Part shown: in pieces, positions 54,386 to 57,397 of the stretch
How the letters are laid out: each line of letters begins with the position of its first letter
Numbering within the stretch: the stretch's first letter is position 1
From: Anaerolineaceae bacterium
Lineage (GTDB): Bacteria; Chloroflexota; Anaerolineae; Anaerolineales; Anaerolineaceae
Assembly: GCA_019429225.1 (NCBI GenBank)
Contig: JAHYJK010000004.1
Coordinates: 1-57,397, forward strand
Direction of reading: 5' to 3'
DNA: 57,397 bases
Notes under the pieces: generated by a model
Seen by the model: only the letters and a program-made list of their open reading frames with translations
Databases searched by the model: none
Told to the model about the DNA's origin: nothing
Made by a program: the position numbers and the translations under genes

Positions 54386-54697
54386 TTAACCAATCACCGT
54401 ATCCACCGGTAAAATTTTTTTCAACACGTTCTTTTCCGTTTTAGCAGCAAAATACATCTCCCACCTCAATTGCATATTCATCCAGAAATCCGGCGATGTG
54501 TTAAAAAACTTTCCCAGTCGTAAGGCAGTGCTGGAGGTAATTCCTCTCCGGCCATTAACGATATTATTTATCCTCTGGTAAGGAACCAGGATGGCATCAG
54601 CCAATGCTCTTTGAGTTAATCCCATAGGATTTAGAAATTCTTCCAGAAGCATTTCTCCTGGATGGGTAGGGGTTCTTTTTGTTGGTATTTGTATCAT
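54386..54697 (-). CDS. HigA-family antitoxin (orphan)
   Basis: A 103-residue XRE-type helix-turn-helix protein of the HigA/VapI family: RTPTHPGEMLLEEFLNPMGL followed by TQRALADAILVPYQRINNIV and the HigA-specific FFNTSPDFWMNMQLRWEM. HigA neutralises HigB mRNA interferase and represses its own promoter. The toxin gene normally lies just upstream on the same strand; here that space holds the SAM riboswitch on the other strand, and no HigB is found. Confidence 0.88.
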   Translation of the reverse strand: MIQIPTKRTPTHPGEMLLEEFLNPMGLTQRALADAILVPYQRINNIVNGRRGITSSTALRLGKFFNTSPDFWMNMQLRWEMYFAAKTEKNVLKKILPVDTVIG

Positions 54698-54780
54698 AAT
54701 TCACTTCTATCACTTAATGATAATCGATGATTTTATCTGGTGTATAATTAATTTAACAATTCAATAGCCCCAGCGGCGCA

Positions 54781-54934
54781 CTTATCCAGAGAGGTGGAGG
54801 GACCGGCCCTTTGAAACCTCGACAACCTGCAGAGAATCTGTAAGGTGCCAAATCCGGCAGAGTAAATCTGGAAGATGAGAGGCGAGCGATTTTTCCTTGC
54901 CCCTCTCAGCGTGGGGTTTTTTAATTCTGAGAGG
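54781..54934 (+). promoter_or_regulatory. SAM-I (S-box) riboswitch
   Basis: The core at 54781-54881 matches the SAM-I consensus in order: CTTATCCAGAGAGGTGGAGG, GACCGGCCCTTTGAAACC, GACAACCTGC, AAGGTGCCAAATCC and the closing GATGAGAG. Downstream, CCTCTCAG (54902-54909) can pair either with TGAGAGG of the P1 strand (54876-54882) or with CTGAGAGG (54927-54934) next to the ribosome site GAGGAGGT. These pairings are mutually exclusive, so SAM binding should free CCTCTCAG to hide the ribosome site: translational OFF. A weaker G/C hairpin and six T at 54917-54922 may also terminate transcription. A TATAAT at 54743-54748 is a possible -10. Confidence 0.92.
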
Positions 54935-54942
54935 AGGTCTTT

Positions 54943-54978
54943 ATGAAATTCATGTACCTGAAATTCAAGCTGCCGTAG
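54943..54978 (+). CDS. 11-residue leader peptide or gene remnant under SAM riboswitch
   Basis: ATG 54943 stands behind the riboswitch-controlled GAGGAGGT. Its frame stops after 11 codons (MKFMYLKFKLP). If one base is inserted near the start, the other frame reads IHVPEIQAAVDAYLASNKTG to the TGA at 55008-55010, which looks more like real protein. It could therefore be a tiny leader ORF or a frameshifted remnant of the original regulated gene. Confidence 0.35.
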   Translation: MKFMYLKFKLP

Positions 54979-55064
54979 ATGCTTATTTAGCGTCAAACAA
55001 AACCGGCTGAAGTGTATCAGCCTGGTTGAATGGTAAATCTATAGAAATTCATCAGGAGTTTAAC

Positions 55065-55370
55065 ATGAGTGAAAATGATAATTTAGAAGAAATCTGGAAT
55101 ATGATCCAGAAAGAATACCCACTAGTTATGTTCACAGGCAGTTCCAGACTATATACGATGGTGCGGCGCATGCAGGCCGAGAAAAAAAATAATATTCCCT
55201 GTGAGTTGCGCAGTGGTTTTGCCGTATCTGTAAAGTCAGGAAAACACGCCAATGAAATGGCAGAACAGGAATGGGAAGATTTTTATAATGCTTTGAGGAA
55301 GGAGCTGAAGGAAAATTATCCAATGTTGTATCACAAATTATTCAAAGATGAGGAGGATCTGAGTAATTAG
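55065..55370 (+). CDS. Unknown small protein downstream of SAM-I riboswitch
   Basis: 101 residues from ATG 55065 (CAGGAG at good spacing). Charged, soluble and mainly helical: NLEEIWNMIQKEYPLVMFTG, RRMQAEKKNNIPCELRSGFA, EQEWEDFYNALRKELKENY. It has no signal or membrane segment and no recognised domain. It is the only substantial gene between the SAM-I riboswitch and a terminator 6 bases after its stop, so it is likely the regulated gene, and a link to methionine/SAM metabolism is inferred from that alone. Confidence 0.65.
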   Translation: MSENDNLEEIWNMIQKEYPLVMFTGSSRLYTMVRRMQAEKKNNIPCELRSGFAVSVKSGKHANEMAEQEWEDFYNALRKELKENYPMLYHKLFKDEEDLSN

Positions 55371-55375
55371 CTTTT

Positions 55376-55410
55376 ATGGAGAGATGACCAAAAATCATCT
55401 CTCCATTTTA
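55376..55410 (+). terminator. Rho-independent terminator
   Basis: ATGGAGAGATGA (55376-55387) pairs with TCATCTCTCCAT (55395-55406), 12 bp, loop CCAAAAA, followed by four T. Ends the riboswitch transcript. Confidence 0.9.
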
Positions 55411-55432: not shown

Positions 55433-55461
55433 TTGACTTTAATTTTTAGATTTGCTATTCT
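55433..55461 (+). promoter_or_regulatory. Promoter of the LacI gene at 55531
   Basis: TTGACT (55433-55438) and TATTCT (55456-55461), spacing 17, about 70 bases upstream of the regulator start. Confidence 0.7.
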
Positions 55462-55530: not shown

Positions 55531-56565
55531 ATGCCTACAGTTCGTCAAATTGCACAACATGCAGGTGTTGCCAAAAGCACCGTCTCTTTGGTAATGAATA
55601 ACAAACCCGGTGTATCTGATAAAACACGTCAGATCGTTCTAAACGCATATCAGGAATTAAATTCACAAAATGAAAATAATTCTGATGACAACTTGGAAAA
55701 AAACATTTTTTTTACTCATTCTCATTATGTAACCAAAAAGCCTTTGTCATTCGTAGTATTTCATCCTGCCATTCTTGGATCAAACCAGGTATTTTCAGAA
55801 CTGCTGGCTGGTATCCAATATGGAGCAGATCTGTATCATGCACAGCTTCGTCTTACAATCAATGAAAGGAAGATTTCTTCTAACCATATCAGTAATTTAT
55901 ATTTAAAAGATCCCTCTTTACAGCCAGATGGCATTTTGATTATAGGTGCAAGAGAAAAAGAACCAGTATTAGAGGAAGCAGAACGCCAACAAATCCCCTT
56001 TGTAATCGTCAGCCGAACTGTTTCGGACCCATCCATTTCTGCAGTCGGTCGTAACGAGGTAAAAATTACAATGGAAGCTGTAAATTATTTAATTGAATTA
56101 GGACACACAGCCATAGGTTTTGTTGGAGGTAATCCCTTATATAGCTATACCCATCAGAGAATTCTGGGTTATCAAAAAGCGCTTAAGACATCCGGTATTA
56201 CACCACCCGATCGTTGGGTTTCATTAGGTACAGGAGATGAAGCCGCAAAAACGATATTACAAAACAGTCCAGAGATCACAGCCATCGTTTTTGTTAATGA
56301 CACATTTGCCATGCAAGCGCTACCAGTTCTTATTCAAGCCGGGCATCGAATTCCGGACACGCTATCTATTATTTCATTTGATGATACGGATGAAGCAAAA
56401 AATTATAACCCTCCCTTAACTTCAATTCATCATCCTCGTTATGAGGAAGGTGCCTGGGGTGTTCGAATACTGGTTGAAAAAATTCGAAATCCCAATTTTG
56501 AAGAATGTCAGATCATTCTAAAATCAAATTTCATATTGCGGGACTCCTGTTCTCGACCAAAATAA
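55531..56565 (+). CDS. LacI-family transcriptional regulator
   Basis: A 344-residue repressor: N-terminal HTH (TVRQIAQHAGVAKSTVSLVM, then NNKPGVSDKTRQIV) with a rather long, Asn/Asp-rich linker (~48-70), then a sugar-binding sensor domain (PDGILIIGAREKEPVLEEAE, IGFVGGNPLYSYTHQRILGY, IISFDDTDEAKNYNPPLTSI). It directly precedes a sugar-binding protein gene, which is the likely target of its regulation. Confidence 0.93.
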   Translation: MPTVRQIAQHAGVAKSTVSLVMNNKPGVSDKTRQIVLNAYQELNSQNENNSDDNLEKNIFFTHSHYVTKKPLSFVVFHPAILGSNQVFSELLAGIQYGADLYHAQLRLTINERKISSNHISNLYLKDPSLQPDGILIIGAREKEPVLEEAERQQIPFVIVSRTVSDPSISAVGRNEVKITMEAVNYLIELGHTAIGFVGGNPLYSYTHQRILGYQKALKTSGITPPDRWVSLGTGDEAAKTILQNSPEITAIVFVNDTFAMQALPVLIQAGHRIPDTLSIISFDDTDEAKNYNPPLTSIHHPRYEEGAWGVRILVEKIRNPNFEECQIILKSNFILRDSCSRPK

Positions 56566-56591
56566 AACGTAGTGGAGAATTCTTTCTTCAC

Positions 56592-56602
56592 AAAGGAGGT
56601 GA
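56592..56602 (+). promoter_or_regulatory. Orphan Shine-Dalgarno in binding-protein leader
   Basis: AAAGGAGGTGA is an 11-base perfect match to the general bacterial anti-Shine-Dalgarno, yet no start codon follows at usable distance; the real start is 65 bases downstream. In Bacillus such a site (STAB-SD) stabilises the 5' end of mRNA. Confidence 0.5.
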
Positions 56603-56666
56603 AATTTAAAATTTTTCTTTTAGTACGCTGTAAGAACCAATCATAAAAATTTAGAAAGGAATGAAA

Positions 56667-57397
56667 ATGAAGAAGAAGAATATTTTTACGTTATTCGTGT
56701 CATTAATGGTCATTGCTTTGATCATCACCTCCTGCGCTCCTGCAGCCCCTACAGCTGCACCAGTTGTTGAGCAACAACCCACAAAAGCGCCAGAACCAAC
56801 CAAAGCGCCAGAACCAACCGCGGCAACCGTTGAAGAACCTGCACCGGAACCCTTAGAAGATGTTGAATTACGCATGACCTGGTACACAGATGGCAATGAA
56901 GATGTAGCCATGCGGGCTTTGTTGGATAAATTTGAAGCGGAGAATCCAAACATCAAGGTGGTACTTGACAATGTAGCATACAATGTAATTCTGGAACAAC
57001 TTCCGGTTCAATTGGAAGCTGGACAAGGCCCAGATCTGGCCCGTGTGACCCAATTTGGTATCTTATCACCTTACTTTTTGGACATCAAACCTTATGTTGC
57101 TGATCCCGGTTATTGGGAAGAAAATTTTGGCCCATTCCTGACCTGGATGAGACCAACAGGTGATACAGAAGGTATCTACGGTATGATGACCCAATTAACG
57201 GTCACCGGACCTTACATCAACCGCACCCTCTTTGAACAGGCTGATGTTGTAGTACCCAGTGATGGTTCAGCGTCAGCCACCTGGGAAGATTGGGCTGAAG
57301 CTACCCGTCAGGTCGCAGAAGCTACTGGCACTGATTTTGCCATGACGATGGATCGTACCGGACATCGACTCGCTGGCCCATTGATCAGCAATGGTGC
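56667..57397 (+). CDS. Sugar ABC transporter binding lipoprotein (3' truncated)
   Basis: The gene runs off the window end; 243 codons are visible. Signal peptide with lipobox ITSC, a long Pro/Ala/Glu/Thr linker with repeated KAPEPT, then a family-1 solute-binding domain: LRMTWYTDGNEDVAMRALLD, FEAENPNIKVVLDNVAYN, LEAGQGPDLARVTQFGILSP. ATG 56667 is preferred to ATG 56661 because AAAGGA is six bases upstream of it. Sugar specificity is not evident and it differs from the glucose-type protein at 6.7 kb. The upstream LacI gene is its probable regulator. Confidence 0.9.
   Translation, partial: MKKKNIFTLFVSLMVIALIITSCAPAAPTAAPVVEQQPTKAPEPTKAPEPTAATVEEPAPEPLEDVELRMTWYTDGNEDVAMRALLDKFEAENPNIKVVLDNVAYNVILEQLPVQLEAGQGPDLARVTQFGILSPYFLDIKPYVADPGYWEENFGPFLTWMRPTGDTEGIYGMMTQLTVTGPYINRTLFEQADVVVPSDGSASATWEDWAEATRQVAEATGTDFAMTMDRTGHRLAGPLISNG

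Follow-up and report, generated by a model that had tools for sequence, protein, structure and literature searches.

A SAM-I (S-box) riboswitch whose leader, judged from its relatives, is of the metK type stands in an Anaerolineaceae genome in front of a small gene of no recognised family, and what is new here is the lineage-specific target behind a known riboswitch class. On balance it appears probable that promoter, SAM-I leader, 101-residue gene and end hairpin form a one-gene unit, in which the metK-type leader would act by attenuation and the gene would be expressed at low SAM. The window, i.e. the whole 57,397-nucleotide stretch of DNA analysed, is contig C174 of the source genome (G000; assembled to 4.2 Mb over 368 contigs). 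A matching arrangement is carried by the genome of a sister species (G007) at locus L006 in JAURZL010000011.1, and in a third species (G005) the SAM-I leader is present and the 101-residue gene absent. The locus is a natural case in which a change of target gene by a riboswitch can be read off, and related genomes show the leader both ways, constrained where the gene is present and with altered core letters where it is absent. If the control is confirmed, a small uncharacterised protein would join those made when SAM runs short. No paper combining 'SAM-I riboswitch' with 'Anaerolineae' was found in the literature and, among the matches listed, no title or abstract opening described SAM-I before such an orphan gene. 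The features of the locus are collected in Table 1.

Table 1. Features of the SAM-I locus and its neighbours, in window coordinates.
Feature	Position	Strand	Basis
HigA-type antitoxin gene (TIGR02607)	54386-54697	-	profile match; SAM-I unit at the expected place of the partner
Putative -10 element TATAAT of the unit	54743..54748	+	alignment of three genomes
SAM-I (S-box) riboswitch aptamer	54779..54881	+	cmscan RF00162, 86.8 bits
P1 3' strand UGAGAGG	54876..54882	+	sequence; can pair with 54902-54908
Weak terminator-like GCCCC-loop-GGGGU, then U run (platform)	54899..54922	+	folding, alignment
Alternative hairpin CCTCTCAG/CTGAGAGG, overlapping the upstream Shine-Dalgarno in part	54902..54934	+	folding
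Shine-Dalgarno AGGAGG	54932..54937	+	probable descent from the metK ribosome site
Spacer evolving at about neutral rate	54939..55053	+	G007 comparison
11-codon ORF ATG...TAG, not a gene	54943..54978	+	no ATG there in G007; no clear codon-position bias
Shine-Dalgarno AGGAG of the 101-residue gene	55054..55058	+	sequence; letters same in G007
Gene for 101-residue protein of unknown family	55065..55370	+	81% identity in G007, dN/dS
12-bp hairpin past the gene, probable transcription end	55376..55406	+	folding, G007 comparison
LacI-type regulator and sugar-binding ABC protein, behind the unit	55531-57397		

The aptamer and the type of its leader

The SAM-I riboswitch that the first-pass annotation had named from the letters of the window is a real member of this known riboswitch class. 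Searching with cmscan gave a match to RF00162 over the full model (1-108) at 86.8 bits, against a gathering cut-off of 44.4, with an E of 3.1e-19. The score is 86.8 bits in the sister species also, and 76.8 in the third species; the core motifs AGAG and GAGGGA are present in the first two and altered in the third. The aptamer of the source genome would be expected to bind SAM. Between source genome and sister species, 6 of 101 aptamer bases differ (plus 2 gap columns), as do 5 of 57 bases of the expression platform, so that aptamer and platform together show 11/158 differences versus 39/114 in the adjoining spacer (P = 2e-8; platform alone versus spacer, P = 3e-4). There are three SAM-I riboswitches in the source genome, the other two of which we take to precede metK (L001) and metH (L002), these genes having been recognised by eye. 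A metK gene with its own leader, again recognised by eye, is present elsewhere in this genome.

A switch of this kind normally precedes the SAM synthetase gene. For comparison, 76 leaders were collected by running a regular expression on fetched loci, which missed some loci (e.g. L025 and L053), and identical leaders were merged; the classes metK, metH, metA and metY are our presumed assignments from short sequence motifs. In the tree of these 76 leaders the three orphan leaders, i.e. those of the source genome, the sister and the third species, group together (100/95), and the orphan group sits inside the metK leaders, beside six metK leaders of another genus (fork 96/94). A GCCC motif upstream is found in 44/46 metK and 3/3 orphan leaders, compared with 0/20 metH and 0/4 metA leaders. 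Of the best non-orphan DNA matches, the 27 with loci that were read (L097-L123) all stand before metK; as these loci were selected by likeness to the query leader, the class counts are not those of a random sample. Sister metK leaders also carry CCCCTCTCCGCGAGGGG and a U-rich run at the corresponding place, and share with the window the order P1 strand, CCCCTC, GGGG, U run, GGAGG and ATG. By tree placement and motifs alike, the leader in the window is thus of the metK type. A tree constrained to group the orphans with metK leaders of their own genus could not be rejected, either with 4 such rows (p 0.089) or with 7 (p 0.242), and therefore transfer and local duplication are both possible sources of the leader. 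A DNA-level comparison of gyrA matched just 3/8 genomes and was left unused. In another genome (G006, locus L046), one of three SAM-I riboswitches precedes a metA-like and then a metY-like gene, both recognised by eye.

Since the leader is of the metK type, the 'Shine-Dalgarno switch' described in the first-pass annotation is best read as inherited from metK. The AGGAGG at 54932 occupies the position that GGAGG has ahead of metK in the sister leaders, although the alignment sets the two a few columns apart, for which reason we say only that the upstream Shine-Dalgarno probably descends from the metK ribosome site. The likeness to a metK SAM-I leader (RF00162) extends over the aptamer, the GCCC motif upstream, the CCCCTC platform strand, the position of the ribosome site past the U run and, probably, transcription attenuation. 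What sets the leader in the window apart is a gene other than metK behind it, a weaker terminator stem and an additional hairpin that extends into the upstream ribosome site. Behind this leader no metK is found, and the 101-residue ORF is there instead. Remains of a metK body were also sought: local alignment scores for the spacer and for the 101-residue gene were reached by 14/200 and 127/200 shuffles, respectively, and the score of the spacer against the first 80 bases of metK was reached in 89/500, so that a worn metK, not clearly above chance, was rejected in each case. The earlier alternatives, loss of an original gene or a new SAM-controlled protein, both find some support here. The leader is of the metK type with no metK behind it; a metabolic gene at this very site, named in the first-pass annotation as a refuting result, was not seen in the relatives examined.

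The 101-residue gene and the spacer before it

The relative of the 101-residue protein in the sister species is 81% identical over all 101 residues. Between the two genes 12, 10 and 32 of 101 codons differ at positions 1, 2 and 3, respectively, and the dN/dS ratio is 0.158 (27.2 synonymous and 26.8 non-synonymous changes), compared with 0.173 for the adjacent LacI gene. In its pattern of substitution the ORF behaves as a real gene under purifying selection. Past the gene, the end hairpin folds with -17.6 kcal/mol within a 59-base stretch and has 1/30 differences to the sister species.

The gene is rare. It was found in 2/61 relatives, in 2/400 genomes drawn from the order, at convincing scores in 2/147 genomes of the family, and in 1/400 genomes drawn from the phylum, that one being the source genome itself. 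A contig scan for close relatives of the protein gave one locus; viral contigs, scanned for close relatives only, gave no match, and neither did phages and plasmids searched by tblastn. Homologues away from the riboswitch, which the first-pass annotation had named as a refuting result, were not seen: the gene lies behind SAM-I in 2/2 genomes that carry it, which, with just two genomes having the gene, is a thin linkage. Together with the purifying selection, this lends partial support to the proposal of a new SAM-controlled protein. Weak profile matches (E 0.01 to 0.085) in 5/147 family genomes were judged to be chance. Four of them had loci, two of these with an in-frame stop; in pairwise tblastn against those four loci alone, two align over 28 to 58 residues and two do not, with E values of 1e-4 to 1e-3 that hold for this tiny four-locus set.

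As had been noted from the sequence, no family is recognised for the protein. The best Pfam profile (E 0.021) was below the cut-off, NCBIfam and PADLOC gave zero matches, and a PHROGs match of the window protein (0.0047) was dropped because it was absent for the homologue in the sister species. Among PDB sequences the best E was 0.56, with no solved relative. The fold model is mostly helical and of low confidence (mean pLDDT 61.4), and its best Foldseek match (E 5.3) was not interpretable.

The 101-residue gene starts 86 bases past the end of the 11-codon ORF. The region before it drifts at about the neutral rate: the spacer (54939-55052) has 39/114 differences to the sister species, the third positions of the gene having 32/101 for comparison, and in the 120 bases before the gene 10, 12 and 15 of 40 codons differ at positions 1, 2 and 3. 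In the sister species no ATG follows the upstream Shine-Dalgarno, and its spacer, read in frame with the gene, contains four stops; thus the 11-codon ORF is not conserved and a base error need not be invoked. The ATG...TAG pointed out by the first-pass annotation therefore exists, but its interpretation as a gene, leader peptide or frameshift remnant was rejected, given the missing ATG in the sister species and the almost even drift over codon positions; the error suspected near base 54946 is not supported either, the sister genome showing the stretch to be non-coding. Read-through of the spacer, sought in 147 family genomes, gave only the source genome, the sister species and one match (E 0.07) with a stop.

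The expression platform and competing explanations

The strand CCTCTCAG (54902-54909) can pair either with the P1 3' strand UGAGAGG or with CTGAGAGG (54927-54934), and the latter overlaps the AGGAGG at 54932-54937. This mutually exclusive pairing of UGAGAGG, CCUCUCA and CUGAGAGG is present in the sequence and in folds of cut stretches; pairing of the P1 3' strand with 54902-54908 appears when the stretch is folded only as far as the U run. The terminator-like stem-loop has -7.7 kcal/mol for the sister and the third species (the same stem-loop), and its stretch is identical in letters between source genome and sister species, the U run being interrupted at 54921 in the third. For metK leaders, the terminators have a median of -13.5 kcal/mol in the 33/46 leaders where the hairpin search found one. 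Neither this stem-loop nor the hairpin past the gene was among the hits of a consensus terminator scan. The alternative hairpin has -11.6 kcal/mol in the source genome, -11.8 in the sister and -14.4 in the third species, and its stem letters are unchanged across the three. In the source genome the terminator search favoured this sequestering hairpin (-14.4), and so did unconstrained folding of the entire platform. Compared with shuffled sequences, the whole leader does not fold exceptionally well (z -1.35; 25/200 shuffles equally good). Upstream of the aptamer, the -10 element reads TATAAT in the source genome and sister species and AATAAT in the third; it is given as putative because the promoter scan had no listing for TATAAT.

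In the mechanism we propose, a metK-type S-box leader, probably with the ribosome site of metK, would have come to precede a small, unrelated gene. Binding of SAM would let P1 form and leave the CCCCUCUC strand available, and transcription would halt at the GCCCC/GGGGU hairpin with its U's. Without SAM, the P1 3' strand would pair with CCUCUCA so that the terminator would be unable to form, and the gene would be transcribed and then translated from its own AGGAG site. The 101-residue protein would in this way be produced under a shortage of SAM or methionine. Transcriptional control is favoured on two grounds: the AGGAG that serves the gene (55054) is not part of the switch, and the sister species has no start past the AGGAGG at 54932. 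Termination at CCCC...GGGG-U6 is the likelier mode of control, and our confidence in this step is moderate since the stem is weak, is unlisted by the scan and gives way to the alternative hairpin in the source genome.

A translational switch of the kind put forward in the first-pass annotation, in which SAM would let CCTCTCAG cover AGGAGG and, in the source genome, translation of the 11-codon ORF would be coupled to that of the 101-residue gene, draws on the stability of the hairpin at 54902-54934 and its unchanged stem, on the good spacing of AGGAGG from the ATG at 54943, and on hairpins reaching over the ribosome site in two sister metK leaders (L099 and L108). It appears unlikely, however, as the ribosome site covered by the hairpin is not the gene's own: that AGGAG, identical in both genomes, lies about 120 bases beyond the upstream Shine-Dalgarno and outside the switch hairpin, while the sister species lacks the start codon and has its four spacer stops, and the spacer evolves at about neutral rate. 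The alternative pairings noted in the first-pass annotation are thus there in the sequence, but their control of the 101-residue gene is not supported. Riboswitches with a dual platform of terminator and ribosome site are described in PMC2258182, and here, too, one choice of strand can affect both transcription and ribosome access. In those systems the ribosome site is that of the gene itself and forms part of the terminator hairpin, whereas in the window it lies past the terminator and serves the 11-codon ORF in the source genome and no gene in the sister species.

It is quite unlikely that the leader is a functionless relic, left after loss or rearrangement of metK, with the 101-residue gene expressed regardless. 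Its metK type, the meaningless short ORF and the left-over leader with its P3 pair but no gene at the site in the third species would suit such a relic; the strong conservation of aptamer and platform between source genome and sister species, next to a spacer that is not conserved, would not, nor would core motifs that are intact in these two and changed where the gene is gone. That the aptamer senses another ligand is very improbable. Spermidine-binding variants of SAM-I are described in PMC10853860 and share with the present case a SAM-I scaffold before genes outside methionine synthesis, the target here not being a methionine gene. Different from those variants, the source genome and sister species retain the common form of the two core motifs compared and score like ordinary SAM-I. 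The one departing letter, in GACAACC, is also found in 4/4 metA and 3/46 metK leaders. Least credible, to the point of being hardly conceivable, is a single split gene, in which a frameshift and an in-frame TGA separate the short ORF from the 101-residue ORF or which is read by recoding. In both genomes spacer and gene are indeed in one frame, interrupted in the source genome by a single stop, but the missing start and the four stops of the sister species speak against it, as do the lack of a clear third-position bias and the failure of the read-through search, with its single further match at chance level, to reveal an intact relative among the 147 family genomes.

The gene-less leader and the surroundings of the unit

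The third species keeps the leader and gave no match to the 101-residue gene. Just upstream of the unit it has 1/40 differences to the source genome, versus 16/35 in the sister species; in the aptamer 10/101 bases differ, versus 6/101. Its core motifs have changed from AGAG to AGCG and from GAGGGA to GCGGGA, each form occurring in 1/76 leaders; at the two altered positions, 74 and 75 of these leaders have A. Three of the ten aptamer differences are common to the sister species, and two (54831 and 54839) swap A-U for U-A in P3 with the pair retained, and therefore this aptamer is not simply decaying, which points to a structure maintained for a while. The sequence jumps from the AGGAGG region to what seem to be the last codons of the gene, which makes gene loss by deletion likely, presumably between short GAGGA-like repeats. 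The core changes fit a relaxed constraint after the loss of the gene, in this one case. Beyond attenuation of a one-gene unit, we tentatively regard it as possible that a gene, newly arisen or newly arrived, took over a metK leader to give a small dedicated SAM-starvation protein confined so far to one genus, and that the riboswitch of the gene-less species has been free to change, even at its core.

The order gyrA, tRNA-Val, SAM-I, 101-residue gene and LacI gene is common to the source genome and L006. Leader and LacI gene occur jointly in 3/8 genomes of the genus, and at E 1e-50 the LacI protein of the window was found only in the same 3/147 genomes of the family; it was tried as a clue to a donor and set aside. 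A promoter-like site lies before the LacI gene at 55433-55461, 4 such sites occurring in the region versus 2.9 expected by chance. The SAM-I/101-residue unit is probably monocistronic. In another genome (G001), whose gyrA start is identical to that of the source genome over 200 residues, the 9.5 kb stretch that was read has no match to the unit, and the site holds a HigA-like gene preceded by what we take, by eye only, to be a HigB-like gene. The window retains higA, and its homology to this genome ends near 54725, not far from where the unit begins. In the sister species, the stretch behind tRNA-Val (L006, 4340-4640) carries repeats of parts of the tRNA 3' end and tail, a hint that insertion or duplication has occurred here more than once.
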